From NCBI GenBank assembly GCA_019347945.1, contig JAHWKK010000023.1:23632-60827 (forward strand): a stretch of 37,196 nt of DNA, given 5' to 3'. Below the pieces are notes generated by a model. The model saw nothing but the letters and a program-made list of their open reading frames with translations. It had not been told where the DNA came from and made no database searches. The position numbers were made by a program, and so were the translations under genes. The number at the start of each line of letters is the position of its first letter. The stretch's first letter is position 1. Origin of the DNA: Acidobacteriota bacterium (GTDB lineage Bacteria; Acidobacteriota; Thermoanaerobaculia; Gp7-AA8; JAHWKK01). This document shows positions 1 to 36,123 of the stretch, one piece after another.

Positions 1-192
1 ACGATCCCCGAATACTTCGAGGGGCACTGGGTCGAGATCACAGGAGCCGATGGTGTGGTGAAGGGGGTCTGGGAGATCGCAGAGGGATCGATCAGCGACC
101 GAGCGGTGACACTCGAGTCGAATGCGGAGTCGGGGACCGCAAGCGTCGAGCCCGGAGACCAATGGCGGGGCGTCTACCGGTTCGATGCGGTT
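1..192 (+). repeat. Long direct repeat, copy 1 (at window edge)
   Basis: Bases 1-192 recur at 1087-1278 with two mismatches that I can find (GAG/GGG and CGG/CAG codons). The period is 1086 bases, exactly 362 codons, so the repeat keeps the reading frame of the adhesin gene. The copy begins at the first base of the window and probably extends upstream. Confidence 0.9.
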
Positions 193-3228: not shown

Positions 3229-3242
3229 GCAGACATCGAGTT

Positions 3243-3847: not shown

Positions 3848-3908
3848 GATGTCTACCCATTCTGGAGGAACCGATCGCGAAACGCCAGATAATCCCGAAG
3901 AACGACGA

Positions 3909-22600: not shown

Positions 22601-23123
22601 GAAGCAGATTCAATTGGAACGTGGAGAGACCGTTACAGTAACGACCTACAGTAAGGTCTATCCCACGGTGCGTTTCCTCGGCATTTTTGATGTTGTAGGA
22701 TCTTTTGGTCTTCCGGGGAATGCGACCGATATGGGCTACGATCTGAGTCGACCAACCAATGTTCGCGCCATTCGTCACGCGGTATCTCTGGATGAACGAC
22801 GTCGGCTTTTCCCTCTGACATCGATGTTGGATCTACAAGGAACCGGGCCATCTTACGTGATCGAGAAAGGCTTCAGGGGATCACATTCGGATGTCGGTGG
22901 TGGGTATGAGGACAACGATGAGCTCGCTCAGGTGGCTTTGCGATGGATGTGGGACGAGGCGGTCAACGCGGGCATTCGAATGGGCCCGTTGAGTCCCGAC
23001 GATCAGCGAGCCGATCCGTTCATCCAGCACGATGAGTCGTCGTTTCTGACTCGAACCTACAACTTCCTGAGGCAACGCAATGATCGCGTCATTTACTATC
23101 AGGGTCGACGGTACCGTCGATGA
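10608..23123 (+). CDS. Giant secreted RHS polymorphic toxin with Tle1-like phospholipase tip
   Basis: 4171 residues starting at ATG 10608, with weak ribosome-binding signals. Residues 1-39 form a signal peptide with core LIPVLLFLLAITLPAPG. Residues ~66-115 are the later strands of a carboxypeptidase-regulatory-like domain. SbsA-type Ig (~721-828) and ZU5-like segments (near 471 and 960) follow. A propeller-like region starts near 1460. The RHS shell begins near 2264 (VDRTYRSATIGHSPLGSGWD) and YD repeats run to ~3800. The core ends with LRARWYDPDTGTFLSPDP and the DPTGL motif (3883-3887), the usual self-cleavage signature of RHS cores. The tip (3888-4171) matches DUF2235/Tle1 hydrolases: FFDGTGN, YYEGVGS, GFSRGG with nucleophile Ser3972, GIFDVVGSFG and GSHSDVGGGY. 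It probably degrades phospholipids of competing cells. Delivery by Sec and the cell surface rather than by T6SS is inferred from the signal peptide and the lack of a PAAR domain. Confidence 0.9.
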   Translation: MNMTNERSTTRKPETRNRPERLIPVLLFLLAITLPAPGQSSDIREGHAPAEPQFSATAPSLASQSTVSVDSRGRYVMRLQEGAHTLEISSPGYTTAWRQVIVPAGASVVPIDVILDPLGPTATAVDGEPISLQHGGATPVTLPVALTVPAGSAPAGTSVTLTSVGQQSLAGLLPLGWSPLASAEVRLSGEVVSASVAVARDGDETSGEVASEKGRASRGGMGSAGFQPAGPQASSLASPLAAQTAGSTSGSTLSFSVPADEILVANQTLSAVAYDSARDEWIVLDAVVSISESGQVSVTIPDSWLLAPGSFSIALVYPDDAADLTSPPVPSSGSPLRGVDRPEDIETALSQAEVSMDLDPRQILPTQRATITVSVNDWLLAPGSWLLPSGTPVQAWIDEELTLADGSTVTEPPFKTDLILYRDLDGSPLEAKFHLAPSVRAREVFLSVGYERIRLQPYPYELARGTVVGPEGGRVSGDGDVVIEIPAGATLEPISAESRSLTTEEITTFGTLEGFRIAGGFELQMQRLESGDSGLEGEQTTSVELWEAARATFSVADATETDQVIIAKIVDDSPFGRIYELATRTEQLTTSGGVTTRLTTLVEDPTLGLPISGITTEGRYLILVAEQPVAWAWGRVENGAGRPVTDAQVLSLASELSAPLGVSSLTPNALFALPVVAEPAAPFALRPRSRASGDGALYTHAVSPAPDEIVPVYAITLAPQPPVVTSVSPPDGATGVSLTTNVRVDFSPGIDTTSVTGSTLVLTDTLIGEIVAGTISADPSGITWSLAITADRPSLAPATRYAIAVSPSIRGANGAPLGATFTSFFTTLEQITSTEIDASKIRITIPDDSGRSTVNGLAGALPAGAQALVVRRGRDFATQYQATAATDGSFTIALGDCSSPLDARRSPPPCDVVAVTDQLQLYVTNDIGNLIAIVPLTPFALPDGSGFVAPAATQTTFTTDDGITVTVPAGAFDQPTLVTVTPETSAPFADVPSFSEELTFATAIDLDLDCTISEASSPSVAPGSPLLAPSCVAREKLQISIPVPSDAPADRQWLLGRLGESTRGPRVMIVDTLRIDGNQFRTDLADTTSALVSGSAASTAVRSAGVSPAGSQASSLQPTAPVTTQAATVKDLLMGVRDKARYTVIDISIPGTTIGWATTSISSDALELHFDQFRSLYVDSLYVDQNDGVVAFPMVTGQPFTVIGVNTQTALKSFEKLYDPLTPTDPGTPFVLDPPDTPGTGPFPLFGTPFSIDQTEIEAIDQVTGSLGKFELQIDKGIASLALPATGIEDDDLTLVNFTTGKRDSKIDGGLSVKVGVGDRLGLVSWKHGVSDDALISVVFDQAIEAGDSADPVAVDAFLRNRLKVYADGEDVSSSVRFRIDSSGRRITAEPLARLRAGTGYYLVLQPNLVGAVSGLKIGQRKDEEGNLSAGLTQDLYLPFNVREVGGTLGAFELSEGAIRESLLIDNILLMSARDAGILAFETTDPATIDGLNPRGRIVVSGDAWGLARDAHGRIFGTVIGDTFGSLRSWDFEELVEASTGTNEVLGHRSSTLISWSPSADSLSATSATLPVAVPRKLFVVTQDADPLIFDTATLPSGWSASPLDDKWYELSGSEILQGAGGDDHPYLVQRITVENVTRGGRWSADAYIDSPAAFTGVVAKEGDQLRITKNLRAWAVVSLFGHGIGVYDLNAMESNDADVTAPADWTRPREILSVSTGENDPPIQNTVSDLRFNSDVSAIPRAAGVDGYGLNVREGILDFALPVTEEALATQTTLERGIGFLLKGDFTEEAKPASLRRLDALRATYELRFAVQPPVQRLSGSDVISWMIPAIDNRPVAPPSEGASPGVRGSIAGSDASRDYLLAAAGDLGLLVIEAGGSGYLQPSFGIPGLHIGDKLVDVIWLPAGVFAVRSVPERDLAVVVDGEGYVHLVDLSRVDERWTEIGQYRDPSILFPSASDAIMAEFPRADHRVIWRSEQPLANGTLAPVLDPETGILYTSKLQGTETDVSAVLDPKLDVLIDLGDGLGTLGAILPLGVPLPAALESAMTGPTASASAFRVAMTLPGDIDATGTFSVAVESERVPGAVAPQTASPLPPAHLRTIDGQPLPLHRDIPAGMAGSLRHQRMFNRFVSGWVVPLADPRASIDWSWPSGTTSDDKEAAGCSNCDRPDHLKGDATAPELLVSGWTVMIRPDLDPTSAYGWLADGRLDRRFPSTPVDTVRPTDVLVHPNNPPVATGLTEGTIYLHSGELELGSLDLDAGGYNDWNVLVDRTYRSATIGHSPLGSGWDSSLFRRLRPLPDGNVEYRDGAGGQWLFRRTASGWIAPEGLPLALARTADGWMLRDVKRRLLRFDGYGRLISESDDSYEPAAPGSGNVISYLYDTNGRLARVIDSLGRPSSLAWADNFGGRLLTVTDWRNREVRFGYDALGRLASVNLPVVENIDGIRPELRYGYVAPTSGLAGYLGYGSNLTEFFEPGIAQPRAQFSWAGEKMWMETWATNEKVNIDYQSDSLVNVTDALGQTRAYTIASEAPGARAHLASLTEKGIRTVTGSFGQLPPLGPASYTNVDRIYELEMEGGYLSRTLLQGVGETEISRKDAASIKGALAYSVASRPVTTSASGSSLSSESVAAAEITRQINYQDQLPDCGDCYAHVQSVSWSDTVQSFTVERPEANRANKSPVATNNSVVSQASLNDKGAVTSVTSTGGTVEGGAGAQIALDRHGFNGKLWERGAVSKVDDGGLETKVEYPDANTVVETDPRGIVTTTRFDQWDRIVAVEVSGEPGTSEKWYYDSAGRLRRHERRQGTDTVSTHFVHDKMGRLIERRTNHIEVAGIDNEITTTVAYDLQNRTIATTLPSGSVRTETLDGLGRMESVTTTTGELSIGNLVDEMGYDIAGNLSYYFDGHKYSSSAFDFHGRRIRQLNPDGTRVDTEWTALGSPRRIRTFGADGELISDQSFDYTTSGRLDGLSAAVDETQARDLSLAWDGAGRTSGVDVSGRAAATRFDHAGRVTSTNAGAGSASTGVSESFVSSTVTGHQGYLPSVVEIGELGAATYDSTLAFDSASRLTNHSIGSLESAWKYNEAGQLVQQRMPDRGEFRYERDSRGSLTREVLPDQSTIDYSYDSVGAQIAYRDQTSEVTSTQTDLIGRPLIRTYADGTSEAFTWKGRQLSTYTDRQGRLRSYTFDDAGRLVTISVEGQGVVEKIEYGLDGRLSRWATPGAAVLFLDYDLDGNPTHTAQERFANGSGTGSAPELIDRYEQTHQWNVHGERSSWTMPSYNGFAAAGTWTESLTASYDPMGNLEILTRALSDGTSSTLMSTSFRNAGRPNSRMIQTPSGAVIERNYDYDETTGQIDGFRVSANGGQPFAGSLLEYDGIQVADQLLIGISGETRHNLYDYDDRSRLQAVLMARRVDNVVSDEVLDPADFREALARPQDDPLDPPSLDFAEEAGHKIDALTKGNETFDFNWNGAERQSDGRFAYTFDAQGRLIEAREIVTPQSISIRRVLYIYGADRLVGRRAGYANLLSAGTEPLDTDWKIEDRNDVLESDGLPAETTFVWDPVTDTIVAIYRAGASANPAIDANGGLVRQIVHGGLSYDDPVEVSIARTGEPTLRLYPVYDEIGGGQLQAVLNESGEIVSRASSNGAYGEESFGIPGPAIDRISISATTDSTGALSSMELELRSTEILDAATIASGTRLVSLDAEGSVLTSSSVTPLLDDPWTVRWSLTSAQWSELSVDASAISVAATDQLRAAQWGGTSVLPVPGPLLGKAGMASSGSLPVEHRATLASLSSWLSSLGADAEGELVPYDVEGLHVFASTGTTGDPSSLIVAAPFHAHPWQEPLTELNYLRARWYDPDTGTFLSPDPLGYQDSSNLYAFCAGDPINCSDPTGLAGYFFDGTGNDRAKMVNPTNVAKLEAVYRGGNRWYYEGVGSDWYTLGNGGLYGLGGRLRLEAAYEELVKQFNETDDRTIDIFGFSRGGALAVAFANMIAERGIPIYSRSHEKQIQLERGETVTVTTYSKVYPTVRFLGIFDVVGSFGLPGNATDMGYDLSRPTNVRAIRHAVSLDERRRLFPLTSMLDLQGTGPSYVIEKGFRGSHSDVGGGYEDNDELAQVALRWMWDEAVNAGIRMGPLSPDDQRADPFIQHDESSFLTRTYNFLRQRNDRVIYYQGRRYRR
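11272..11316 (+). repeat. Double-hairpin element, copy D, inside the RHS gene
   Basis: TAGC, then GCAGGTT-TTC-AACCTGC (11277-11293, 7 bp perfect), spacer CGGGCC, then GCAGGCT-TCC-AGCCTGG (terminal pair lost). It is read in frame as AGFQPAGPQASSL in a low-complexity linker near residue 224 of the RHS protein. Confidence 0.8.
11511..11540 (+). repeat. Heptamer repeat inside the RHS gene (1)
   Basis: Tandem CTGGCTC-type heptamers read in frame as DSWLLAPGSF at residues 302-311 of the RHS protein. Confidence 0.75.
11736..11772 (+). repeat. Heptamer repeat inside the RHS gene (2)
   Basis: Four perfect CTGGCTC units at 11738-11765 followed by a degenerate tail, read in frame as DWLLAPGSWLLPSG near residue 377. 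Three units equal 21 bases, so frame is kept only for multiples of three units. Confidence 0.85.
13666..13695 (+). repeat. Heptamer repeat inside the RHS gene (3)
   Basis: Imperfect CTGGCTC/CCGCTC heptamers read as VAPGSPLLAPS near residue 1020. It lies in a linker inside a Ser/Pro-rich segment. Confidence 0.65.
13911..13956 (+). repeat. Double-hairpin element, copy E, inside the RHS gene
   Basis: GAGC, then GCCGGCG-TCT-CGCCGGC (13917-13933), spacer CGGTTC, then GCAGGCT-TCC-AGCCTGC (13940-13956). Both 7-bp stems are perfect. It is read in frame as AGVSPAGSQASSLQ, in the same phase and orientation as copy D. Confidence 0.8.
22269..23120 (+). other. RHS tip: Tle1/DUF2235-like toxin domain
   Basis: Codons after the DPTGL motif. 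Base composition drops sharply: the 60-base line at 22141 has 43 G+C, while the line at 22321 has 32. The domain contains the Ser of GFSRGG (3972) and the HSDVGGGY motif (His4093, Asp4095), both hallmarks of Tle1-type serine lipases. The drop continues into the following lipoprotein gene, as expected if tip and immunity gene were exchanged as one cassette. Confidence 0.8.
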
Positions 23124-23482: not shown

Positions 23483-23559
23483 CATGCTGGTACTTCGGCG
23501 CGGAGAGTTCCGACCAGGACCCGAATCGAAATCTTAGCGGAAGGACTGTAATAAAAAGG

Positions 23560-23661
23560 AAGCAGGTTCTTCTTCTCCGAAGCTAACCTTATCCTTCCGA
23601 GGCATTCTCGAAGCAGGTTCTTCTTCTCCGAAGCTAACCTTATCCTTCCGAGGCATTCTCG
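23560..23661 (+). repeat. Perfect 51-bp tandem duplication
   Basis: Bases 23560-23610 are repeated without a mismatch at 23611-23661. Each unit begins AAGCAGGTTCTTCTTCTCCG and contains a weak hairpin (GGTTCTTC against GAAGCTAACC). It lies in the ~255-base gap between the lipoprotein gene and the next gene. The gap otherwise holds only the inverted repeat listed next. Confidence 0.95.
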
Positions 23662-24608: not shown

Positions 24609-25514
24609 ATGACCAGATGGGAAGATGGCGAGATCCGTGACCGAGTCTTGACGCCGAGCCGTCGCCCGGCGTGGGTTCGATGGCTGGCTCTGGGGACTGC
24701 GCCTATCCTCCTCATCATCGTGGCGTGGGCGGTCCACGGCCTCATCGTCCACCCGTCCAACGACCGCGACTGGACGATCGATCAGTCCCGACTGGCCACG
24801 GCCGAGATCGATGAGCCGCTCGTGACGATCCGCAATATCCGCAATTTTCGATACCGGAGCGAGACCGACTTCGAGCCCGCCTGGTACGATGCCACCTTCG
24901 ACCTTCGCGAGCTCGAAAACGTCTGGTTCGTCGTCGAACCGTTCGGCTCCTGGCGGGGACTGGCGCACACCTTCGTCAGCTTCGGTTTCGAGGACCAAAA
25001 ATATGTCGCCTTCTCGGTCGAGATACGGAAGGAAAAAGGTGAAGCCTACTCGCCACTCAAAGGACTGTGGCGACAGTACGAGCTGATGTACGTCGTCGGT
25101 GACGAGCGAGACCTGATTGGGCTCCGGGCAAATCACAGAAACAACGACGTGTACCTCTATCCAGTCCGTACGACCAGGAGACGGGCGCAGCGGATGTTTC
25201 TCGAGATGGTTCGTCGGGCGAACCAGCTTGCGGCCAATCCGGAGTTCTACAACACGATCACAAACGCCTGCACCACCAATCTCGTGGATCACGTCAACCT
25301 CGTCGCCCCTGACCGTATCCCTCTCCGGGCCGGCGTTATCTTTCCCGGGTACTCTGACCGGCTCGCACGACAGCTCGGTCTCATCGACACGGAGCTGCCG
25401 CCGGACGAGTTGCGTGCTCGCTTCCGAATCAACGAGCCGGCGGGCGAGCACGCCGGAGCGGAAGACTTTTCCGTGCGGATCCGGGAGCACCTGCCCGCGG
25501 CACGGCTGCGATGA
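24609..25514 (+). CDS. DUF4105 membrane-anchored protein
   Basis: A 301-residue protein. Residues ~26-46 form one transmembrane anchor (LALGTAPILLIIVAWAVHGL); the rest should be periplasmic. The segments IRNIRNFRYRSETDFEPAWYD, HTFVSFGF, SVEIRKEKGEAYSPLKGLWRQYEL and NACTTNLVDH are the conserved blocks of DUF4105, the N-terminal periplasmic domain found in Lnb-type proteins. The conserved Cys-Thr-Thr-Asn and His residues suggest a papain/NlpC-like fold, but activity is not established here. The last ~60 residues are a tail ending in charged sequence. The gene stands alone with no strong Shine-Dalgarno. It is followed by 156 bases carrying the probable promoter of the biosynthetic operon. Confidence 0.8.
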   Translation: MTRWEDGEIRDRVLTPSRRPAWVRWLALGTAPILLIIVAWAVHGLIVHPSNDRDWTIDQSRLATAEIDEPLVTIRNIRNFRYRSETDFEPAWYDATFDLRELENVWFVVEPFGSWRGLAHTFVSFGFEDQKYVAFSVEIRKEKGEAYSPLKGLWRQYELMYVVGDERDLIGLRANHRNNDVYLYPVRTTRRRAQRMFLEMVRRANQLAANPEFYNTITNACTTNLVDHVNLVAPDRIPLRAGVIFPGYSDRLARQLGLIDTELPPDELRARFRINEPAGEHAGAEDFSVRIREHLPAARLR

Positions 25515-25670: not shown

Positions 25671-27239
25671 ATGAGCTCAGACTCGCTCGTCGGTATTGTC
25701 GAGCACTTCGCCGATATGGTGCCGGACCGCACGGTGTTCTCGATCTGGCGCGACGGTGCGTGGCAGGAGTGGAGCTACGCCAGGTTCTTCGATGAGATTC
25801 GGATCCTCAGCTCACACCTGATCGATCTCGAGGTAAAGCCCGGCGACCGCGTCGGGCTGCTCGCCGAGTCAGGCCCATGGTGGGCGACGGGCTATTTTGC
25901 GGCGCTGCGTGCGGGAGCGACGCCGGTTCCACTGGACCCACGAGCCCCACGGCACGAGCTCGACACGACCCTCGGACATTGCAGGCCATCGGCGATCCTT
26001 TTTACCAAACGGGTGCGGGAGCTTGCAGAGGCACTCCCCTCGCGCTCCGTCCCGATCGACGAGCCGCGAGAATCGGGACCTGCCGCTCTGCACCCGTCGC
26101 GCGAGGATCGCGAGGGTCTCGGAGTCATCGCCTACACATCGGGAACCACTGGACGTCCGAAGGGAGTGATGATCGAGCAGTCGAGCCTTCTCTATGAGGC
26201 GAGATCGCTCACCGAGATCCACAATCTCGATCGCGATGTTTTCGTATCGGTCCTGCCGTTGACGCATCTCCTCGTGCTGACGTGCGGTTTGATCGCCCCT
26301 CTGTACTCGGGAGGCGAGGTGGTGTACGCGGGATCTCTTCTCCCGGCGGAGCTCGCCGACTCGATGCGCGACCGTAGAGTGACGACCATGGTCGGTGTTC
26401 CTGCTCTCTACTCGACTGTTCGAAAGGCGATCGAAGCAGCCTTACCCAACCGTGTCTCCCACGCAGTCGCGAGATTCGTTCCCCTGCGCTCTCTTCGACG
26501 ACTTCTCTTTCCGAGACTGCACAGAATGGCGGGAGGTCAGGTTCGCCGGCTGATCTGTGGTGGTTCCAATCTCGACACGGAGACCATCGAGTTCTACGAG
26601 CGGCTCGGGGTTCCGCTCTATCAGGGCTATGGAATGACGGAGGCGGGCCCGGTAGTCGCGGTCAATGGGCCGCGGCAGAACAGGATCGGAAGCGTGGGAC
26701 CCCCGTTGCCCGGAACGGAGCTGCGAATCGCTGAACAGGACGAAGTGTTGATTCGCGGCCCCCAGGTCATGAGAGGGTATCTGGGAGAGCCGGAACTGAC
26801 CCGGGAAGTGCTCGACAGGGAGGGTTGGCTCCACTCTGGTGATCAGGGCAGAGTCGAGGACGGATTTCTCTTCATTACCGGAAGGATCAAAGACCTGATC
26901 GTTCTTCCGGACGGACAGAAGGTGCACCCCGGCGACGTCGAGGCGGTCCTGGGTGCGTGCGAGGAAGTCGAGGAGATCTGCGTGGTGGGAGTTCCGTTGG
27001 AGCGAGGAGAGGAGATTTGCGCGGTCATCGTTCTTCGTGAGGACTCGGAGCTCTCGCGGGTCGAGCCGTCGGTCCGAGAGCTCGCCCGGCAACTGAGAGG
27101 CTTTCGCAGACCGAAGCACGTACTGCTGCATGATGGTCCTCTGCCTCGCACACGCACAATGAAGGTGAGACGGCATGAGCTGAAGGAGTGGGCCGCCGGA
27201 AAACTGGTGAGCGCTCGCCTGAAGCAGGAGGTCGGGTGA
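25671..27239 (+). CDS. AMP-dependent acyl-CoA/acyl-ACP ligase
   Basis: A 522-residue ANL-superfamily enzyme, normal length. P-loop TSGTTGRPKG is at 156-165, YGMTEAGP at 320-327, the hinge-side GWLHSGDQG with Asp391 binding the ATP ribose, and catalytic Lys498 in RTMKVRR. It activates a carboxylic acid as acyl-AMP and transfers it to CoA or to a carrier protein. The overall look is that of long- or medium-chain fatty acyl ligases, but the substrate cannot be fixed. It is the first gene of the nine-gene operon, has a strong AGGAGG ribosome-binding site, and its TGA shares one base with the next ATG. It may supply the acyl starter used by the KAS III-like enzyme, or load one of the two carrier proteins. 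Confidence 0.9.
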   Translation: MSSDSLVGIVEHFADMVPDRTVFSIWRDGAWQEWSYARFFDEIRILSSHLIDLEVKPGDRVGLLAESGPWWATGYFAALRAGATPVPLDPRAPRHELDTTLGHCRPSAILFTKRVRELAEALPSRSVPIDEPRESGPAALHPSREDREGLGVIAYTSGTTGRPKGVMIEQSSLLYEARSLTEIHNLDRDVFVSVLPLTHLLVLTCGLIAPLYSGGEVVYAGSLLPAELADSMRDRRVTTMVGVPALYSTVRKAIEAALPNRVSHAVARFVPLRSLRRLLFPRLHRMAGGQVRRLICGGSNLDTETIEFYERLGVPLYQGYGMTEAGPVVAVNGPRQNRIGSVGPPLPGTELRIAEQDEVLIRGPQVMRGYLGEPELTREVLDREGWLHSGDQGRVEDGFLFITGRIKDLIVLPDGQKVHPGDVEAVLGACEEVEEICVVGVPLERGEEICAVIVLREDSELSRVEPSVRELARQLRGFRRPKHVLLHDGPLPRTRTMKVRRHELKEWAAGKLVSARLKQEVG

Positions 27240-27805
27240 TGACTGCAGAGACACTTCTTCTTCTATGTCTGAACTTTCTTTTTATCGGGGCATTGCCGCG
27301 GATCTTCTTCAAGAAGGGATCGCTCGCCCCGATGTGGTGGGCAACCGCGCTGCCACTTTTCATCTCCCCGCTGACGGCGGTTCTCATCTTTTTCGATCTG
27401 ATGCCCTTGTTCGTGATCGAGCTCGAGTGGGCGCGCTGGCTCTCCCTCGCGGGAATCATCCTGAATGCCGCTTCGATCGCCTTGATTGCTCTCACGATCG
27501 GGAGCAACCGCATCCCGCTGGCGCTCTGGCACCAGAAGGACGACGCGCCGCAACAGATCGTCACGTTCGGCGCGTACAAATATGTGCGCCATCCTTTCTA
27601 CACGGCGTTCCTGCTCGCGCTGCTGTCGGCGGTTCTGCACGCACCTCACCTTCTGACATTGCTGACACTCGTGTACGGGCTGGTGATTCTGAACGCCACC
27701 GCCGCGAGGGAGGAAAAGCGGCTCGCCGCCTCTGAGCTCGGAGAGGAGTATCGAAGCTACATGCAGCGCACCGGACGATTTCTTCCGAGGATGGGACGGG
27801 AATGA
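27239..27805 (+). CDS. ICMT/PEMT-like integral membrane methyltransferase
   Basis: 188 residues from the ATG overlapping the ligase stop. It has several hydrophobic segments (LLLLCLNFLFIGALP, ATALPLFISPLTAVLIFF, WLSLAGIILNAASIALIALTI, AFLLALLSAVLHAP). The SAM-binding signature of isoprenylcysteine carboxyl methyltransferase relatives is complete: GAYKYVRHPFYTAF, then EEKRLAASELGEEYRSYMQRTGRFLPR. The family methylates carboxylates, amines or phospholipid head groups at the membrane. In this operon it could methylate a lipid-like or carboxylate intermediate, which would place part of the pathway at the membrane. It ends with a 4-base overlap with the KAS III gene. Confidence 0.85.
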   Translation: MTAETLLLLCLNFLFIGALPRIFFKKGSLAPMWWATALPLFISPLTAVLIFFDLMPLFVIELEWARWLSLAGIILNAASIALIALTIGSNRIPLALWHQKDDAPQQIVTFGAYKYVRHPFYTAFLLALLSAVLHAPHLLTLLTLVYGLVILNATAAREEKRLAASELGEEYRSYMQRTGRFLPRMGRE

Positions 27806-28752
27806 CAGAGGCATATCTCAACCGTATCGGCTATGCGCTCGGCAGCGAGTCGTGCGACGTGGAACAGACCGCGGCGACCGGGAAGCTCACCTCGGATGCT
27901 GCAGTGATCCGCAAGGCGGGTTTTGCTCGCCACAGCATATGTGCCGAGAGCGAGACCGCGTACGACCTCGGCTTGAAAGCGGTGCGCGATCTCGACGGAA
28001 CGCTCGAAGGAACCGGCGCGATCATCTACTCCACTTGTCTGCCGAACAACGCCAACCTGGGGGATCCCGACGAGTTCGAACGTAGCGGCGACGTGAAGCA
28101 TCTGATGGATTTTCCCGCGAGCCATCTGCAGGCTGAGCTCGGGCTGCACGATGCCGCAGTCATCGGACTGACACAGCAGGCGTGCACGAGTCTTCTCGGG
28201 TCGGTGAGGCTGGCGCGCGCGTTGATCGTCGCCGAGGAGGAGACGACGAAGGTGCTCTGCGTGACAGCCGACCGCTTTCCCGCCGGCGCGACCTATGAAC
28301 AGGCGTACAACCTGATCTCTGACGGAGCGGCAGCGTGTGTGGTCTCGACCGAGAAGATCGGATTCCGAGTGGTCGCATCTCACGCAGTCACTAACGGCGC
28401 GCTCGCCCAGGCGTCTGACGACGAGACGGTCGGCCTCTACTTCAATCACGTGCACTCGATCATCGGAGAGACGCTCCGCAAGGCTGAGCTCGATGTCGAT
28501 GACCTCGCCTGGATCGTGCCGCAGAATACGAACAGGAGCGCCTGGACGATCCTCGCCAGGCTTCTGAAGATCGACGAGGAGCGGATCTTTCTCGATACCA
28601 TCGGAGATATCGGTCACATCATCAGCTCCGACAACCTGGTGAATCTTGCGGAGCTGGATCGCTCCGGACGGATCGAGAGCGGAGATCGGCTGTTGCTCGT
28701 GATGGCGGGCTTCGGTCTGAACTGGCAAACTCTCCTGCTGGAGAAGGTATGA
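27802..28752 (+). CDS. KAS III (FabH)-like condensing enzyme, unusual active site
   Basis: A 316-residue thiolase-fold protein of FabH size. The nucleophile is Cys128 in QQACTSLLGSVRLARAL, followed by LISDGAAACVV and the C-terminal LLLVMAGFGLNWQTLLLEKV strand. Aligned by eye, the FabH histidine motif (PHQAN) reads PQNTN, so Gln241 replaces His. The FabH Asn motif (GNTSAAS) reads GDIGHIISSDN, with His272 nearby. The enzyme is therefore probably not housekeeping FabH but a divergent member that may do condensation, acyl transfer or ester/amide formation. It overlaps neighbours by 4 bases on both sides. Likely partners are an acyl-CoA from the upstream ligase and an aminoacyl- or acyl-carrier protein from this operon. 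Confidence 0.85.
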   Translation: MTEAYLNRIGYALGSESCDVEQTAATGKLTSDAAVIRKAGFARHSICAESETAYDLGLKAVRDLDGTLEGTGAIIYSTCLPNNANLGDPDEFERSGDVKHLMDFPASHLQAELGLHDAAVIGLTQQACTSLLGSVRLARALIVAEEETTKVLCVTADRFPAGATYEQAYNLISDGAAACVVSTEKIGFRVVASHAVTNGALAQASDDETVGLYFNHVHSIIGETLRKAELDVDDLAWIVPQNTNRSAWTILARLLKIDEERIFLDTIGDIGHIISSDNLVNLAELDRSGRIESGDRLLLVMAGFGLNWQTLLLEKV

Positions 28753-29624
28753 GAGCGAGCGAAAAGCTGAAAGATACTGTCGAGTCTCTCTCGGAAAAAT
28801 CGAGGGCGGCGTTCTACGAACCGCAGGAGTCGATCGACTTCCCCGCGTCCGTTCGCGTTGGTGAGGAGTGGTTCACGAGCCCGGAGCTGATCTCTCTGTA
28901 CGGTACCGAACCGTGGGAGGGTCTCGACGAGAAGCAACGAAAGAGACTCAGCTTCTATGAGGCGGTCAACTTTTACAGCCTGAACATCCATGGTGAGCGG
29001 ATGCTGATGGAAGGCCTCGCGAACAGGCTTTACAACCCGGAGCTGCGCGACGTCGCGGAGTATCTCCACCATTTCCTCGACGAAGAGAACAAACACATGT
29101 GGATCTTCGGGACGTTCTGTGTCAACTATGCCGGCACGATCTACCCCGATCGCAAGGTCAGTTTCCCGCGGAAGTACGCAAAGGGAGAGGAACATGTGCT
29201 TTTCTTCACGCGAGTGATGATCTTCGAGGAGATCGTCGACTACTTCAACAGGAAGATGGCGGTCGATGAGAGGCTGAATGAAACGGCACGCGAGATCAAC
29301 CGGATCCACCATGCCGACGAATCACGACATCTGATATTCGGTCGTCGCGTTCTCGCGGAGCTCGTCGATGCCTTCAGAGACGAGTGGCCGGAAGAGACGC
29401 TCATCGGGATCGACGAATACGTGCGAGGCTACTTCAGGGTGGTCTGGAGGGAGTACTACAACCGCGACATCTACCGTGACGCCGCAATCGTGGAAGCCGA
29501 CGAGTTGCCGAAGAGGCTGCTCGAGGACGACGAGGCGCCGCGCGAGCTGAGGCAGACGATCTCGAAGGGCCCGGTCGACTACCTTCTCAAACTCGAGCTG
29601 ATCCGGGAGCGACCGTCGCTGTGA
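28749..29624 (+). CDS. AurF-like diiron N-oxygenase
   Basis: 291 residues with a full set of AurF-type iron ligands. E83 lies in IHGERM, E113 and H116 in DEENKH, E160 in IFEEIVDYF, and H187, E191 and H194 in RIHHADESRHLIF. The spacings E160-27-H187-4-E191-3-H194 and E113-3-H116 match the ligand spacing of the p-aminobenzoate N-oxygenase AurF. Family members oxidise amines to hydroxylamine, nitroso or nitro groups, and some act on carrier-protein-bound substrates. The neighbouring genes for loading an amino acid on a carrier protein suggest that the amine of that residue is oxidised while tethered. N-oxidation rather than C-hydroxylation is inferred from the family. Confidence 0.85.
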   Translation: MRASEKLKDTVESLSEKSRAAFYEPQESIDFPASVRVGEEWFTSPELISLYGTEPWEGLDEKQRKRLSFYEAVNFYSLNIHGERMLMEGLANRLYNPELRDVAEYLHHFLDEENKHMWIFGTFCVNYAGTIYPDRKVSFPRKYAKGEEHVLFFTRVMIFEEIVDYFNRKMAVDERLNETAREINRIHHADESRHLIFGRRVLAELVDAFRDEWPEETLIGIDEYVRGYFRVVWREYYNRDIYRDAAIVEADELPKRLLEDDEAPRELRQTISKGPVDYLLKLELIRERPSL

Positions 29625-29866
29625 ACGACCCGCGGGCTCAGTTGAGGGAGTGGATGGCGAAGAACGGCCGGGGGTCGGTCGGCAAGGAAAATCTGAGCGA
29701 CTCGACTCCGCTGATCGAAGAGGGGATTCTCACCTCGGTGCAGGTGCCGGACCTGCTGCTCTTCATCGAGGAACTTCGGGGAAGGCCGGTCGAGATCGAC
29801 GAGCTCGGCCCTGGTGCGTTTCAGAGTATCGACGTGATCATGCAGAGGTTTTTCGCCGATGTCTGA
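29621..29866 (+). CDS. Acyl/aminoacyl carrier protein 1
   Basis: An 81-residue carrier protein with a GTG start overlapping the AurF-like stop by 4 bases. The phosphopantetheine site is Ser39 in EEGILTSVQVPDLLLFIEEL. The motif reads LTS rather than the DSL of fatty-acid ACPs, closer to DltC-like and amino acid carrier proteins. An acidic helix and a final helix (AFQSIDVIMQRFF) complete the four-helix fold. It lies directly before the amino acid:[carrier protein] ligase gene, with an 8-base overlap, so it is the most likely acceptor of the amino acid. No phosphopantetheinyl transferase is in the window, so a genomic one must act. Confidence 0.85.
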   Translation: MNDPRAQLREWMAKNGRGSVGKENLSDSTPLIEEGILTSVQVPDLLLFIEELRGRPVEIDELGPGAFQSIDVIMQRFFADV

Positions 29867-30740
29867 GCTTCGGAAACTTCAGCCGAGCGAAGTCCCGGGA
29901 CTCCAGTGGCTGCCGGGCGGGCAGAGTGCACTCTCGGGCGGGCTGCTGCGGCAGCTCGATGTGCTCGACGCGCTGTTCCTGAGATTCGCCGACGAGCTGG
30001 GAGCAGCGCGTGTGAGCTTCCCACCGCTGGTGAGTGTCGAGCAGCTGGACCGGATCGCCTACTTCGAGGCGTTTCCGCAGCTCTTTACCGCAGCGGTCGG
30101 TCTCGAGGCCAGCGAGGAGAACCTGCAGGCGTTCACCGCCGGAGACGTCGTGCACGACGGCGCGCTCAAACTCACGGAGCTGGCGCCGGTCAGGGAGATT
30201 TTGACACCGGCGGCATGCTATCCACTCTATTTCAGCCTGCAGGAGACTGAGCTGAGTGGCAGGGCGATCTACACTGTTCGCGCTCAGTGCCATCGACGCG
30301 AACGCGAGTTCGTCCCCCTCGAGCGGCAATGGTCATTCGCGATGCGCGAGATCGTATGCCTCGGATCGGGTGAGGAGGTCAGAGAATTCATCGCGTTCTG
30401 CACCGAGAGCCTCGACCGGCTCTTCCGGGAGCTCGCGCTCGAGATCGAGTGGAAGACCGCTACCGATCCGTTCTTCGACCCGAAGAATCCGCAGGCTCTC
30501 ATGCAGAAGGTGGATCCGGTGAAGCGCGAAATGGTGTGCGACGGCCTCGCCATCGGATCGACGAACTACCACCGCCATCACTTTGGCGATGCGTTCGACA
30601 TCACCCGCGATGGGAAGTCGGTCGAGTCCGGCTGCGTCGCTTTCGGTCTCGAGCGGTGGCTTCGCGTGCTGATCGAGCAGTACGGCGAGAATTCCGAGGA
30701 GTGGCCTCGCTTCGACGAGATCGGGTGGCCCGGTGAGTGA
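29859..30740 (+). CDS. Amino acid:[carrier protein] ligase (atypical SerRS-like)
   Basis: 293 residues resembling the catalytic core of seryl-tRNA synthetase but without the N-terminal tRNA-binding coiled coil, so it should not charge tRNA. Class II motifs are visible: CHRRE and the loop ending WSFAMREIVCLG (motif 2), and AFGLERW (motif 3). The Cys120, Glu164 and Cys259 pattern (AACYPLY, MREIV, SGCVAFG) matches the Cys-Glu-Cys zinc site of bacterial amino acid:[carrier protein] ligases. Those enzymes adenylate a small amino acid such as glycine or alanine and transfer it to the phosphopantetheine arm of a carrier protein. The adjoining carrier protein gene supports this role. The amino acid used here cannot be read with certainty. 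Confidence 0.88.
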   Translation: MSELRKLQPSEVPGLQWLPGGQSALSGGLLRQLDVLDALFLRFADELGAARVSFPPLVSVEQLDRIAYFEAFPQLFTAAVGLEASEENLQAFTAGDVVHDGALKLTELAPVREILTPAACYPLYFSLQETELSGRAIYTVRAQCHRREREFVPLERQWSFAMREIVCLGSGEEVREFIAFCTESLDRLFRELALEIEWKTATDPFFDPKNPQALMQKVDPVKREMVCDGLAIGSTNYHRHHFGDAFDITRDGKSVESGCVAFGLERWLRVLIEQYGENSEEWPRFDEIGWPGE

Positions 30741-31788
30741 GATGACCCTGATCACCGGTGCGTCGGGGTATCTCGGTCGGCGCCTGGTCGAGAGCCTCCG
30801 GACCCGCAGCGAGGACGAGCTGGTCCTGTGGGGCAGGTCACTCGACGGTTTCGAAGGCGATCGAGCTACACTCGCAAGTGGCGACATGACCGACGATCAG
30901 CCGTTCCGCGAAGTCGATCCGAACGGGATAACCAGGATCATTCATGCCGCAGCGGTTACGCGATTCAACGTCGACCCCGACACGGCCCGGGAGGTCAATG
31001 TCGAAGGTGCGCGAAAGCTCTTCGACTTCGCGCGAAGATGCCCGAATCTCGAGTCGTTCGATCTGCTCAGCACTGTCTACGCCTTCGGTCTCGAGGGAGG
31101 CAGACTGACGGAGAGGCCAGCCGCCGGGGATTCGGGCTTCGCGAATGAGTACGAGCGGTCGAAAAACCAGGCGGAGAATCTTCTGATTCATGAGTACGAC
31201 GACCTGCCGTGGCGGATCGAACGAATCGCGACGGTAATCGCAGACGACCAGGGCGGTGCGGTGGCTCAGGAGAACGCCGTCCACAACACGCTGAAGCTGC
31301 TGTATTACGGACTCCTCTCGCTCGTCCCGGGCAAGCCGGAGGTCCCCCTCTACTTCGTGACGGCGGATTTCGTGACTGACGTTCTCGTCTCAGTGATGGA
31401 AGCAGGAGACCTTCGACAGATCTATCACGTCTGTCATCGGAAGGACGAGTCGCTGACCCTCGACGAGTTTCTCGACATCGTCTTCGAGACTTTCGAGGAG
31501 GATGAGAAGTTTCGAAGCCGGCGGGCTCTCAGACCGCTTTACACCGATGCGGACTCTTTCGACCTGATGGTGGAACAGGTGTCGGGTTTCAGCGGAGGGA
31601 TCCTGGGGCAGGCAGTCGGGAGTGTGGCTCCTTTCGCACGGGAGCTCTTCAGCGTCAAAGAGTTCTCGAATGAGAACGCGCGGCGGGTGGCGGGCGATGG
31701 AGTACCGCACGATGAGCGGGAGCTCGTCGCAAACGTCTGTCGCAGTCTGGTCAGAAGCAGATTCGGAGTTGCCAATGTCGCTGTCTGA
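30733..31788 (+). CDS. Extended SDR, thioester-reductase-like
   Basis: 351 residues from GTG 30733; ATG 30742 is an equal candidate and gives MTLITGASGYLG right at the start. NAD(P)-binding GASGYLG and the YxxxK pair (Tyr137/Lys141 from the ATG, in YERSKNQAE) with LLSTVYAFG before it define an extended short-chain dehydrogenase. The blocks IIHAAAVTRFN, VNVEGARKLFDFA and the WRIERIATVI strand resemble thioester-reductase (NAD_binding_4) domains that release carrier-bound acyl groups as aldehydes or alcohols. A simple epimerase/dehydratase remains possible. It overlaps the ligase gene by 8 bases and the ferritin-like gene by 14. In this operon reductive release of the finished chain is the best inference. 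Confidence 0.78.
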   Translation: MSEMTLITGASGYLGRRLVESLRTRSEDELVLWGRSLDGFEGDRATLASGDMTDDQPFREVDPNGITRIIHAAAVTRFNVDPDTAREVNVEGARKLFDFARRCPNLESFDLLSTVYAFGLEGGRLTERPAAGDSGFANEYERSKNQAENLLIHEYDDLPWRIERIATVIADDQGGAVAQENAVHNTLKLLYYGLLSLVPGKPEVPLYFVTADFVTDVLVSVMEAGDLRQIYHVCHRKDESLTLDEFLDIVFETFEEDEKFRSRRALRPLYTDADSFDLMVEQVSGFSGGILGQAVGSVAPFARELFSVKEFSNENARRVAGDGVPHDERELVANVCRSLVRSRFGVANVAV

Positions 31789-32356
31789 GAACGAACGCTG
31801 GATCCTCAGTTTTTACAGAACCTCGGAGATCAACGGCTCACTCTTTTTCGGAAGGCTCGCCAAATCGCTCCCTCCAGGGCCGGTGCAGCATGACATGACG
31901 AAGCACTTCTCCGACGAAGGGCTTCATGCCTGGTACTGGACCTCCTGTCTCGAGAAGCTCGGTACGGAGCCGTTACGGCTCGACGAGACCTACCAGGAAC
32001 GCTATCTGGTGGCAGCTGGACTCCCTGTGAATCTGATGGAGATTCTCGCGATCACGCTGATCTTCGAGAAACGTGTGATCGGGCAGTACGGGTTGCATCG
32101 CGCTGCACCGAACATCCGCCCGGAGGTTCGCGAGACGTTCGATCTGATCATGGAGGACGAGAAGTGGCACATCGAATGGGTGTCGAAAGCGCTCGGGGCA
32201 TTGAAGCCGGAGTACGGCGAAGAGAGGGTGAAGCAGACGCTCGAACGGTTTCGAGAGGCCGATCGTGACGTGTACGAGAGTGTGCTGAGGGAGCACGAGG
32301 AGCGTCTCGAAGAGCTGATGCAGAACCGGAGGCGAAGGAGGAGTGGCAGTGAGTGA
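31775..32356 (+). CDS. Ferritin-like diiron protein
   Basis: 193 residues from ATG 31775, chosen because GGAG lies just upstream and the following sequence (MSLSENERWILSFYRTSEIN) starts the first helix. The four-helix diiron ligand set is complete: E18 (TSEINGS), E48 and H51 (SDEGLHAW), E98 (IFEKRV), E129 and H132 (EDEKWHIEW). It belongs to the ferritin-like superfamily and is shorter than methane-monooxygenase-type hydroxylases. It could be an oxygenase or desaturase acting on the carrier-bound substrate, or an auxiliary redox protein for the AurF-like enzyme. Overlaps of 14 bases upstream and 8 bases downstream place it firmly in the operon. Confidence 0.75.
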   Translation: MSLSENERWILSFYRTSEINGSLFFGRLAKSLPPGPVQHDMTKHFSDEGLHAWYWTSCLEKLGTEPLRLDETYQERYLVAAGLPVNLMEILAITLIFEKRVIGQYGLHRAAPNIRPEVRETFDLIMEDEKWHIEWVSKALGALKPEYGEERVKQTLERFREADRDVYESVLREHEERLEELMQNRRRRRSGSE

Positions 32357-32576
32357 GTTCAGACAGCGTCTGGCGAAGGCGATCGGCAGGAGCGAGGAGA
32401 TCGAGCGGAAGAGACCGATCGACGAGCTGGGGGTCGACTCGTTCGCGCTCGTCGACATCATCGTACGGCTTCAGGAAGAGCTGGGCGTCCGGATCTTTCA
32501 GGAAGATCTCGCCGAGGTGAAGACGGTCGGAGACCTCGAGGACGTATTCGAATCCCGCGCAAAGGAATCGGGTTGA
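32349..32576 (+). CDS. Acyl carrier protein 2
   Basis: 75 residues from GTG 32349, chosen over GTG 32343 because AAGGAGG (32334-32340) is 8 bases upstream. The phosphopantetheine site is Ser31 in DELGVDSFALVDIIVRLQEE, the DSF/DSL type usual for fatty-acid or polyketide ACPs. It thus differs from carrier protein 1 and may carry the acyl rather than the aminoacyl partner. It is the last gene of the operon. No clear intrinsic terminator follows; 32577-32698 contains no gene that I can support. Confidence 0.88.
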   Translation: MSEFRQRLAKAIGRSEEIERKRPIDELGVDSFALVDIIVRLQEELGVRIFQEDLAEVKTVGDLEDVFESRAKESG

Positions 32577-32795: not shown

Positions 32796-33158
32796 ATGGA
32801 AAAGCCAGTACCACCGGATCACGGAGTTACATTCAACCTCGACAGCATCGCTCAGGCGCTCCGGGCAGAGGAGCCGTACGTTCGCGAGGGACAGACTGCC
32901 CGAACCCTCATCCAATCGCCTGACCTGCGTCTCGTGATCGTCGCGCTCGAGGCCGGCAAGACGATCTCTGAACACCACACCCACGTAACCGCGTCGGTCC
33001 AGACCCTGTCCGGGCACATCCGCGTGCAACTCCCCGAGCGGGTTGTGGACGTGCCAGCCGGCCAGCTCCTGGTGCTGGGCGCTGGTCTTTCACACGACGT
33101 GTATGCTGAGACCGACCGCACGTTCGTATTGACACTGGGATGGCCGCCTAACAGATAA
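32796..33158 (+). CDS. Small single-domain cupin
   Basis: 120 residues from ATG 32796, preceded by GGGAGGAA. The cupin barrel is clear: ISEHHTHVTASVQTLSGHIRVQL (metal-binding His cluster HHTH in motif 1) and VPAGQLLVLGAGLSHDVYAETD (motif 2, His in LSHDV). Such small cupins bind a metal and may be sensors, isomerases or quercetinase-like proteins; no substrate can be named. It is flanked by REP-like sequences on both sides, so it is probably a stand-alone gene. A longer frame starting at 32679 is REP-derived and was not used. Confidence 0.8.
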   Translation: MEKPVPPDHGVTFNLDSIAQALRAEEPYVREGQTARTLIQSPDLRLVIVALEAGKTISEHHTHVTASVQTLSGHIRVQLPERVVDVPAGQLLVLGAGLSHDVYAETDRTFVLTLGWPPNR

Positions 33159-33465: not shown

Positions 33466-33555
33466 TCATCGTGGAAGATCAATCTCGCGGTTGTTGCCGC
33501 GGGAGGTGACGTGCCAGAGAGCACCACGATGTTCGAGTCTGAGCGGCCGAGCCAT
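33466..33555 (-). pseudogene. RAYT (REP-associated tyrosine transposase) N-terminal remnant
   Basis: The frame starts MARPLRLEHRGALWHVTSRG and continues NNREI, the characteristic first 25 residues of Y1/HUH transposases of the RAYT group. It breaks off after 29 codons, so the HUH motif and catalytic Tyr are absent. REP-like sequences lie on both sides (33421 and 33697). The piece is a dead remnant; mobilisation of the local REPs would need an intact RAYT elsewhere. Confidence 0.75.
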
Positions 33556-33696
33556 GGAGAAACCATCCCTCGGTGAAAGGAAAAAGTCCAACCGTTGCCC
33601 GAAGTGATTGCTTTTCTCCCTCGGAATGGCAACTTTCGTGACATCTTTCCACGAGGAGTAGAATGCTTTTGAGCCCGAAAATGTGCGAGGAATCGA

Positions 33697-33714
33697 AGAA
33701 CGAAGGTGTGACCC
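33697..33714 (-). repeat. REP-like sequence 4
   Basis: The minus strand reads GGGGTCACACCTTCGTTC, identical over this stretch to the element at 34627. It sits at the point where homology of the quinone oxidoreductase gene begins. Confidence 0.65.
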
Positions 33715-33727
33715 CAAATTTCCGCAT

Positions 33728-34459
33728 GTGGCCTTCATGGGACTCCCCTGCTATGCAGAGAAAGTCGTGATTCCGGCCGTCGCGGCGATTCCGCTTCCAC
33801 CCGAGATCGACTTCGACACGGGCGCATCATTTCTCGTCACCTATCTCACCGCGCACCATCTCCTCCATACGATGGGCCGCGTAAAGAGCGGAGGCGTCGT
33901 CCTGCTCTACGCCGCCGCGGGAGGAGTCGGAACCGCGACGATCCAGCTCGCGAAGATCGCGGGGATCGAGATCATCGGCCTGACCAGCAGCGATGAAAAG
34001 GTACAGCGGCTTCGAGACCTGGGCCTCGAGCATGTGTTTACCTACGATCGTCCCGATCTCGTCGAAGAGGTCCGTAAGGTGACCGGCGGGAGGGGAGTCG
34101 ATGCGATCCTCGACTCGGTGGCGGGGACGCAGTTCCATCGGAATTTCGACATGCTCGCTCCCCTCGGACAGCTGGTCTGGTTCGGCTACTCCGGCGGGAT
34201 GCCTCCCGAAGACCTGCTCGAGCACCTCGGAGCGCATTTCATCAAAGGAATCGGCCTGCACACCTTCCACCTGACCTACAGCGTCGCGGAGCCGTACCCC
34301 GAGCTCGCTGCCCACTCCGTCGGCGTGCTCCTGGAACATCTGGTAGCGGAACGCATCGAGCCGATCATCCACGACCGGTTTCCGCTGACGGAAGCTCATC
34401 GAGCTCATGAGCTCCTGGAGAATCGAGCAACCGTCGGCAAGCTGATCCTCAACCCGTAA
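33728..34459 (+). pseudogene. 5'-truncated NADPH:quinone oxidoreductase (MDR family)
   Basis: From codon 33728 (VAFMGLPCYAEKVVIPA) the sequence follows zinc-free medium-chain quinone oxidoreductases to the end (RATVGKLILNP). It includes the nucleotide-binding AAAGGVGTATIQLAK and the GGRGVDAILDSVAG block. About 80 N-terminal residues of the GroES-like catalytic domain are missing. The open frame simply runs back into REP sequence up to an ATG at 33683. Family members are ~320-330 residues; only ~243 are left. I treat it as a pseudogene cut by the REP/RAYT event, though a shortened protein from ATG 33737 cannot be excluded. Confidence 0.75.
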
Positions 34460-34779: not shown

Positions 34780-36123
34780 TCAGTTCTCTCCGCTCTCCAT
34801 CGCTTCCTTCGAGATCACGCGAGGCAGCAGCGTCTGCAGCCCCTCGGCCAAACCGATCGCCGTGTGGGTGCTGTCGTGTCCGCCGCTGAACTCAAGGTAG
34901 CGAACTTCGTATCCCTTCGCCACCAGGACGTCACGTAGGTGACGGTTCGCATACAGCAGTGCGTCGATGTCGCGCTCGAAGGTTCCGACATCGAGATAGA
35001 AACGGATCGGCAGCTTCGGCGCCGAAGCGTACTGCCGCATGATCCGGCCGTAGTCGGTGTCGCTCTTCCACGAGACGAACCCGGAAGTGGAAAGGACGTT
35101 GCCGAAGACGTCCGGATGATTCAGCGCAGCGCAGAGAGCGGCGAGTCCGCCCAGGCTGCCGCCGGCGACGACTACACGCGCCGGATCGGACGCCACAGAG
35201 TAACGGCTCCGGAGCCACGGGACGAGTTCGGTCACAAGAAATTCGTTCCAGGCGTCCGAGCAGCTCAGCTCCTCGGTCCGATCTCTCTGCTCGATGGAGA
35301 CGACCACCGGTGACTCGATGACTCGCTTCGCGTGCAGGTACTCGATGATCTGTTTCAGAGAGCCGGGACTTCGGGCGAACGACGTCGGAGTGCCGTCGAA
35401 GACGATGAGCAGGGGGTGATGCGCCGCGTTCTCGTCATACGCGGGAGGACGATAGACCCAGAACCGCCGTTTCGAGTCCAGGACCTCGCTCTCGAGTGTT
35501 TGCTCTTCCACATCTCCTTCTCCGTCCGAGGTGAATGTCTCCCACGGTTTGGGCGGCGCATCGGGAAGCTCGGCGATCGAGACTACCCAGTCGCGATCCG
35601 CGTGGGGACGGACCTCTCGCTTCGGATTGAGAGGATCGGATTGCCAGGTCGACGAGCGCTGCTCCCACTGCTGATAGCTCTCGATCTCGGTCGCGGGGAC
35701 GAGTGAATCGTTCGGCGAGAGGTAATACACGAATCGCGTGTCACTCGGAAACCGGTAGGTCCGGTACCAGACGTCGGTTCCGTCGAGACGCCTCATCTGG
35801 TGCTCGTCGAGATCCGCGGCGGTGAATCCCCACATCATCGTCACGCCGGAGAAGATCGCCACGTTGCGGGTCTGCCCGTCGTCTTTCCAGAGGAAGGTGA
35901 CATAGCGCTCCGAGGACGAGTCCGCGGGCTCGATCAGCGGAGTCCCGCTCCGTCGAAGCTCGGTCCAGAATTTCTCGAGCGCGTGAGGATCGTGCTCGAT
36001 CCCGGCCGCGAGCCGGATGAGGCGAGGACTCGTCAGGCGTGACGATTCTGCCGCGGAGACGGAATGTGTCGCAGACAGGCAGAGGACCGCGACGGCGATG
36101 GTTAACGTGGCGGCGCTGCGCAC
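34780..36123 (-). CDS. Secreted enterochelin-esterase-like alpha/beta hydrolase
   Basis: 447 residues from GTG 36123. The signal peptide is at ~1-24 (LTIAVAVLCLSATHSVSA). Residues ~35-190 match the N-terminal domain of enterochelin esterases (VTFLWKDDGQTRNVAIFSG, TDVWYRTYRFPSDTRFVYYLSPND). Residues ~210-440 are an esterase-D-type hydrolase with VFDGTP, nucleophile Ser323 in AGGSLGG, LDVGTFERD and His416 in SGGHD. Known Fes proteins cleave ferric siderophore esters; a periplasmic Fes/IroE-like role or a general ester hydrolase is possible. Its ribosome-binding site AAGGTGA overlaps the stop codon of the upstream NTF2-like gene, so the two are coupled. No siderophore synthesis or TonB receptor genes are in the window. 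Confidence 0.85.
   Translation of the reverse strand: MRSAATLTIAVAVLCLSATHSVSAAESSRLTSPRLIRLAAGIEHDPHALEKFWTELRRSGTPLIEPADSSSERYVTFLWKDDGQTRNVAIFSGVTMMWGFTAADLDEHQMRRLDGTDVWYRTYRFPSDTRFVYYLSPNDSLVPATEIESYQQWEQRSSTWQSDPLNPKREVRPHADRDWVVSIAELPDAPPKPWETFTSDGEGDVEEQTLESEVLDSKRRFWVYRPPAYDENAAHHPLLIVFDGTPTSFARSPGSLKQIIEYLHAKRVIESPVVVSIEQRDRTEELSCSDAWNEFLVTELVPWLRSRYSVASDPARVVVAGGSLGGLAALCAALNHPDVFGNVLSTSGFVSWKSDTDYGRIMRQYASAPKLPIRFYLDVGTFERDIDALLYANRHLRDVLVAKGYEVRYLEFSGGHDSTHTAIGLAEGLQTLLPRVISKEAMESGEN

Follow-up and report, generated by a model that had tools for sequence, protein, structure and literature searches.

A conserved operon of discrete carrier-protein enzymes in an Acidobacteriota genome with a predicted role in amino acid N-oxidation

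The window considered here is a 37,196-nucleotide stretch of contig 23 (JAHWKK010000023.1) from the 3.72-Mb, 99.65% complete genome of an Acidobacteriota bacterium (assembly GCA_019347945.1). Nine consecutive open reading frames (ORFs) on the plus strand, positions 25671-32576, form an operon that is present in single copy. In order they encode an acyl ligase, a membrane methyltransferase, a KAS III-fold enzyme, an AurF-type diiron N-oxygenase, carrier protein 1 (CP1), an amino acid:[carrier protein] ligase, a thioester-reductase-like short-chain dehydrogenase/reductase (SDR), a ferritin-like diiron oxygenase and carrier protein 2 (CP2). Every junction overlaps, by 1, 4, 4, 4, 8, 8, 14 and 14 bases in gene order with the starts used here; the last value, for genes 8 and 9, applies to the start at 32343 and falls to 8, the value in the preliminary description, with the next in-frame start at 32349. 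A scan for promoters and terminators gave no signal exceeding chance. The ORF positions bear out the preliminary description of the locus, which had reported nine genes with overlaps at all junctions, and its family assignments hold overall in Pfam, NCBIfam and PDB matches, with corrections for the KAS III and ferritin-like genes. On comparative sequence grounds the operon is real, conserved and apparently undescribed.

Is the gene set more than a chance run? Public genomes were scanned once with the ligase of gene 6, which resembles seryl-tRNA synthetase (SerRS), and 396 genomes of the window's phylum were searched with a profile of gene 8. The ligase scan gave four loci (L005, L006, L007 and L008) from metagenome-assembled genomes of the Actinomycetota (Acidimicrobiales). 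L005, L007 and L008 carry genes 1 and 3-9 in the window order at 36-60% identity, with junctions that also overlap, mostly by 4 or 14 bases, and L006 represents the truncated end of a fourth Actinomycetota copy. The gene 8 profile added two further copies in the window's own phylum. One, L013 (genome G230), has all nine genes in the window order with some spacers between them; the other, L012 (G085), is a contig-end fragment carrying genes 6-9. The same genes are found in the same order in two phyla, with identities of about 36-62%, and 16S sequences from the L007 genome and from a member of the window's order share only about 79% identity; we therefore consider the set more than a chance run and regard it as one conserved operon. 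The preliminary description had proposed looking for such co-occurrence: the set does recur, with eight of the nine genes in L005, L007 and L008 and nine of nine in L013, and homologous loci, far from always lacking most of the genes, include near-complete sets.

The operon is rare and patchy in its distribution. It occurs in 3 of the 396 genomes of the window's phylum, the window's included. With seed genomes counted, the order of G230 gives 1 of 15 and the family to which the L005 genome belongs 4 of 12, and two wider samples of the latter's group give 1 of 296 and 1 of 396. Since the window proteins are about equally close to the Actinomycetota copies and to L013 (53-55% and 56% identity for gene 3, 49-51% and 51% for gene 4, 50% and 46% for gene 6, respectively), the pattern suggests either horizontal transfer or old vertical inheritance with loss.

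A tenth gene, encoding a phosphopantetheinyl transferase (PPTase), lies between genes 7 and 8 in L005, L006, L007, L008 and L013, and both operon PPTases tested match PF01648. No PPTase gene is present within the window operon or in L012; an Sfp-like PPTase is encoded elsewhere in the window's genome (L027, 1180-1821) with a score slightly under the Pfam cut-off. Most copies of the operon include this gene. A putative dedicated enzyme for arming carriers fits a pathway that runs on carrier proteins.

Genes 4, 5 and 6 form the centre of our interpretation. Gene 4 (28749-29624) matches PF11583 at 2e-32, with 112.9 bits against a gathering score of 29.6. Its predicted metal ligands Glu71, Glu113, His116, Glu160/Glu161, His187, Glu191 and His194 are invariant in 11 homologues, and this set of three histidines and four carboxylates agrees with the diiron pattern of N-oxygenases (PMC12154687, PMC12101540). 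Glu83, three helical turns past Glu71, does not vary among the operon-type AurF proteins and is replaced by isoleucine in the six plasmid-encoded ones, a difference that may mark a change of substrate or reaction. Gene 5 (29621-29866) encodes CP1, of 81 residues, which has no Pfam match and only a weak match to an NCBIfam carrier-protein model (NF052616, 8.6e-7). The attachment residue Ser39, in the sequence ILTS, is invariant in 11 homologues, all encoded beside or near an AurF-type gene. The product of gene 6 (29859-30740) aligns with the solved Bradyrhizobium ligase Bll0957 (PDB code 3mey) at 2.5e-32. Cys120, Glu164 and Cys259 fall on the zinc-ligand positions of that enzyme and, with the ATP-site Arg146, are invariant in 11 homologues; the zinc ligands of Bll0957 being Cys/Glu/Cys, we take the three residues to be zinc ligands here. 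The protein has no tRNA-binding arm. Against the amino acid:[ACP] ligase model NF005479 it scores 144.5 bits (3.4e-42), below the cut-off of 357, so it is best classed as a divergent relative outside the modelled equivalog group. In the full operons the CP1 gene adjoins the ligase gene.

The N-oxygenase, carrier and ligase genes also occur together where the rest of the operon is absent, on plasmids of Tistrella mobilis (pTM2) and Streptomyces sp. NBC_01431 and NBC_00335 and, with the genes interleaved, on a plasmid of Agrobacterium vitis F2/5 (L017, 11959-14165; L018, 11956-13903; L019, 11986-13986; L021, 11708-14711). A nitronate monooxygenase gene joins the trio in three of the four and a PPTase gene in three of the four. 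That the trio travels alone is our best argument that the N-oxygenase most likely acts on the amino acid while CP1 carries it and before the acyl group is added. Oxidation of a carrier-bound amino acid at nitrogen is thus the core of the proposed pathway with the best support. The A. vitis cluster additionally encodes, at 14689-15072, a protein like fluoroacetyl-CoA thioesterase (FlK); an enzyme of this kind would be apt for an electron-poor acyl thioester, nitroacetyl for example.

Gene 3 (27802-28752) matches PF08541 (ACP_syn_III_C) at 1.4e-16. Cys128, Gln241, His272 and Asp277 are invariant in five operons, and Cys128 occupies the position of the usual KAS III nucleophile. The Cys-His-Asn triad of FabH is not preserved, since Gln241 lies at the position of the FabH histidine and His272 at that of the asparagine. 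Over the C-terminal half a profile alignment with CerJ is free of gaps and places His272 on His295 of CerJ and Asp277 on the aspartate five residues further. Gene 3 thus has the Cys-His-Asp triad (Cys128, His272 and Asp277) that is found in ChlB3 and CerJ, enzymes that transfer acyl groups (PMC9573744). On the strength of this triad the enzyme most likely transfers an acyl group to nitrogen, oxygen or a carrier rather than carrying out elongation with malonyl-ACP, and the earlier assignment as a divergent KAS III is better replaced by a CerJ/ChlB3-like one than read as a divergent condensing FabH. The plasmid matches to gene 3 that were listed are all below 30% identity. The CerJ-like GHxGAGD motif recurs in a KAS III family protein encoded close to the trio of Streptomyces NBC_01431 (L018, 20210-21280), so there may be a wider link between the trio and acyltransferase-type KAS III enzymes.

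The acyl unit is presumed to be activated by gene 1 (25671-27239), an ANL superfamily acyl-AMP/acyl-CoA ligase of 522 residues (PF00501, 8.5e-74) whose homologue opens the operon in L005, L007, L008 and L013. Its nearest solved structures are feruloyl- and fatty-acyl-CoA synthetases (4e-48); it resembles CoA ligases, and the acceptor may be either CoA or CP2. The latter, encoded by gene 9 (32343-32576), is a 77-residue carrier (PF00550, PP-binding, 4.6e-12) with a DSF motif around Ser33, and Asp32-Ser33 is invariant in five operons. Gene 2 (27239-27805) encodes a 188-residue ICMT/PEMT-type methyltransferase, an integral membrane protein (PF04140, 5.5e-6; PF04191, 1.7e-5). It is confined to the window and L013, where the copy is 43% identical and in the same place, and is absent from the Actinomycetota loci.

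Gene 7 (30733-31788) encodes a stand-alone SDR with a YxxxK motif (Tyr140 and Lys144, both invariant) that matches PF07993 (NAD_binding_4) at 3.5e-25, or 89.1 bits against a cut-off of 20.1. The best profile matches are thioester reductase (R) domains of MxaA, polyketide synthase (PKS) and non-ribosomal peptide synthetase (NRPS) enzymes (2e-17), that of MxaA first, whilst the score against TIGR01746 is 77 bits, below the cut-off of 213. The product of gene 8 (31775-32356) is among the best conserved of the set, 57-62% identical to its homologues, with Glu18, Glu48, His51, Glu98, Glu129 and His132 as predicted diiron ligands invariant in seven of them; it has no match in the plasmid collection. 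By sequence its ferritin-like character is weak (Rubrerythrin, 3e-4, below cut-off), but the AlphaFold model is confident (pLDDT 89) and confirms the fold given in the preliminary description. Superposed on aldehyde-deformylating oxygenases (ADOs) it gives Z values of 17-18.5 over 174 residues at 16-21% identity, which refines the assignment, though weakly, to most ADO-like. The enzyme may act on the released aldehyde.

Taken together, these features lead us to favour, by a little, an operon of discrete carrier-protein enzymes for the synthesis of an amino-acid derivative that is both acylated and N-oxygenated. A PPTase, encoded in the operon in most homologues and elsewhere in the window's genome, would arm both carriers. 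The SerRS-like ligase would adenylate a small amino acid and load it onto CP1, where the AurF-type enzyme would oxidise the thioester-bound amine to a hydroxylamine, oxime or nitro/nitronate group. The ANL ligase would activate an acyl group, probably on CP2, and the CerJ-type enzyme would take the acyl group on Cys128 and pass it to the oxidised amino acid. The SDR would then free the product as an aldehyde or alcohol, the ferritin-like enzyme would oxidise or deformylate what is released, and in some species the membrane methyltransferase would cap it. Sequence comparison establishes the gene set, its conservation, the catalytic residues and the trio for loading and N-oxidation, and supports the core chemistry well, whereas the later steps and the product are far more tentatively assigned; we infer the amino acid, the acyl chain, the order of the later steps and the product, and the progression from SDR to aldehyde to diiron oxygenase is an attractive hypothesis. 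Three steps had been anticipated in the preliminary description and are supported here: loading of an amino acid on CP1 with oxidation of its amine on the carrier, by a trio that recurs alone with catalytic residues intact; joining to an acyl unit, by the acyltransferase-type triad of the KAS III-like gene; and reductive release, by the best solved relatives of gene 7, which are thioester reductase domains.

Several points weigh against this scheme. The specificity for amino acid and acyl group cannot be read from sequence. In L012 the contig ends 464 bases upstream of the ligase gene, and no CP1 is found in that interval. The structure model for gene 4 is poor (pLDDT 56), and its fold search, which ranked CmlI and AurF first at an E value of 0.04, was not relied upon. 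The gene 8 model gives Z values of 16.9 for MiaE and 16.4 for bacterioferritin, within about 2 of the 18.5 for ADO. Finally the order could be reversed, with acylation first, because the AurF-like enzyme of lipothrenin biosynthesis is proposed to hydroxylate an amide after acylation (PMC10616846).

In such a reversed pathway the acyl group would be amide-linked first and the AurF-type enzyme would hydroxylate the amide to give an N-hydroxy-N-acyl amino acid, an iron-chelating hydroxamate lipid. The lipothrenin (lit) cluster of Streptomyces aureus LU18118 (GenBank ON169987), with a KAS III, a fatty-acyl-AMP ligase (FAAL), an acyl carrier protein (ACP) and an AurF-like N-oxygenase, makes such a lipid, an N-hydroxy-acyl-threonine (PMC10616846), and a predicted secreted enterochelin-esterase-like protein is encoded about 2 kb downstream of the operon in the window. 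We nevertheless judge this route unlikely, since lit has no described reductase whereas the thioester-reductase-like SDR is kept in every copy here, the trio occurs elsewhere without acyl ligase or KAS III partners, which favours oxidation before acylation, and the esterase gene does not adjoin the other operons. Were the acyl group instead a later decoration, a carrier-bound amino acid might be N-oxidised and reductively released as in valdiazen and fragin biosynthesis, giving a diazeniumdiolate, a pyrazine N-oxide or similar. Genes 4-7 do provide stand-alone equivalents of the HamC and HamD functions, but the operon has no counterpart of the haem-oxygenase-like, polyketide-cyclase-like, aminotransferase and condensation-domain proteins of ham, and the homologous loci do not share the cupin-like ORF that lies downstream in the window (about 32796-33158), leaving this a quite improbable account. 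It is highly improbable that gene 4 is a CylC-type dimetal halogenase or a C-H oxygenase working on an acyl chain held by CP2. CylC and NocO share the fold family and act on ACP-bound fatty acyl groups activated by FAAL (PMC12101540); the QExxH motif described there is, however, not present, all 11 proteins having Glu112-Glu113-x-x-His116 with glutamate in place of the glutamine, and gene 4 adjoins CP1 and the amino acid ligase even in loci with no acyl ligase or CP2 in the same run.

For genes 7-9 an exit of the alkane type is conceivable, in which the SDR makes an aldehyde from a carrier thioester and the ADO-like enzyme removes it as formate, as in the cyanobacterial AAR/ADO pair. The best structural matches of gene 8 are ADOs and a thioester-reductase-like gene lies alongside, yet other ferritin-like proteins reach nearly equal Z values, the diiron ligand pattern is generic and the SDR matches R domains with AAR absent from its matches; we regard this exit as doubtful. 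The complete AAR/ADO alkane pathway was rejected on that absence of AAR. A further variant, to which we give very little weight, starts from glycine. Glycine bound to CP1 would become a nitroacetyl (nitronate) thioester, an acidic look-alike of malonyl, which the Cys-His-Asp KAS III, having no residue pair for malonyl decarboxylation, would join to the acyl group through a C-C bond with CO2 retained; reductive release by the SDR and the ADO-like enzyme would follow, with loss of C1. If true, this would be chain elongation with a nitro extender, leading to nitro- or oxime-bearing lipids. Two other pathways were considered and set aside. The match of CP1 to NF052616 prompted comparison with the ornithine-lipid pathway, which uses a GH3-like enzyme (OlsH) and an alpha/beta hydrolase (OlsI; PMC12493201); the operon has an enzyme of neither type. 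For the olefin/beta-lactone (OleABCD) pathway, gene 1 is closest to acyl-CoA ligases and gene 7 matches OleD only at 7e-4.

Directly 5′ of the operon, at 24609-25514 on the plus strand, lies a gene for a protein with an Lnb_N periplasmic domain (PF13387, 3e-39). The small cupin-like ORF (32796-33158, plus strand; Cupin_2, 1.1e-4, below cut-off) begins about 220 bases past CP2 and has no counterpart downstream of the other operons. The enterochelin-esterase-like gene (34780-36123, minus strand), 2.2 kb downstream, encodes a protein with an apparent signal peptide and matches to Enterochelin_N (6e-21) and esterase (1.3e-27) families; absent from beside the homologous operons, it is of interest if the product chelates iron. 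Further upstream is an Rhs/YD-repeat-like ORF of 4171 codons (10608-23123, plus strand), preceded by two large repeat-rich ORFs (55-3228 and 3099-9452). At about 23540-23640 a short sequence is duplicated in tandem (ECLGRIRLASEKKNLL in the minus-strand reading). A remnant of a REP-associated-transposase-like protein occupies 33466-33738 on the minus strand.

Why might this operon matter? It is a compact, conserved enzyme set. The favoured pathway would show how a carrier-bound amino acid can be oxidised without an NRPS, by a stand-alone ligase, carrier and diiron enzyme. The simplicity of the trio makes it suited to in vitro work; it recurs in at least three phyla and would offer a handle on many unassigned loci. 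The acyltransferase-type KAS III and the ADO-like oxygenase suggest bond-forming and release chemistry that, to our knowledge, has not been described in combination.

In product logic the lipothrenins are, by analogy, the nearest system. The four lit components named above are common to both, and the lit product is an N-hydroxylated lipo-amino acid; the role described for its KAS III, LitB, is to steer the acyl chain. The cluster also holds an R2-like protein (LitE) and unassigned proteins of 85 and 311 residues (LitK and LitL). Unlike the operon it has no described amino acid:[carrier protein] ligase or thioester reductase, and it encodes a ThiF-like epimerase (LitM), a DUF4873 protein (LitO) and a GMC oxidoreductase, the LitM and LitO types not being among the nine genes. 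The N-oxidation and reduction core finds its nearest analogue in fragin and valdiazen biosynthesis. Among the ham/pvf/mgo systems (fragin, valdiazen and leudiazen), the ham proteins include the NRPS-like HamD, which has a reductase domain and carries the valine on which the AurF-like HamC acts, and HamF, which supplies the acyl chain (PMC11659414). A carrier-loaded amino acid, AurF-like oxidation on the carrier, reductase-type release and, for fragin, an added acyl group are thus held in common, but those systems use a multidomain A-T-R NRPS where the operon has separate ligase, carrier and SDR genes, and they include aminotransferase, cupin and cyclase genes with no CerJ-type KAS III or ferritin-like partner.

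Diiron oxidation of a carrier-bound amino acid, with a methyltransferase that can O-methylate the nitronate, is also proposed for the enteromycin, akazaoxime and althiomycin type, which relies on NRPS/PKS assembly lines, unlike the discrete enzymes here; for enteromycin and akazaoxime the two enzymes are proposed to convert carrier-bound glycine to an oxime or O-methyl nitronate (PMC9967187). The Bradyrhizobium amino acid:[carrier protein] ligases such as Bll0957 share the SerRS-like core, the Cys/Glu/Cys zinc ligands and an adjacent small carrier protein. The neighbours reported for that family (PNAS 2010, cited in PMC2922099) are a Rossmann-fold redox enzyme and an uncharacterised ORF, unlike the N-oxygenase, KAS III and reductase genes of the operon here. 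The plasmid clusters have the N-oxygenase, a CP1-like carrier and the ligase, often with a PPTase, but neither a partner like gene 8 nor a neighbour like gene 3 within the same run, and several carry a nitronate monooxygenase instead. The full gene set matched no described pathway in the open-licence literature searched, though subscription papers could hold one. The view in the preliminary description that no described pathway has this set therefore stands for the full set and has to be qualified by the close partial parallels. The operon combines features of the lipothrenin, fragin/valdiazen and enteromycin/akazaoxime systems but has the complete set of none, so by analogy it works like these three without belonging to any.

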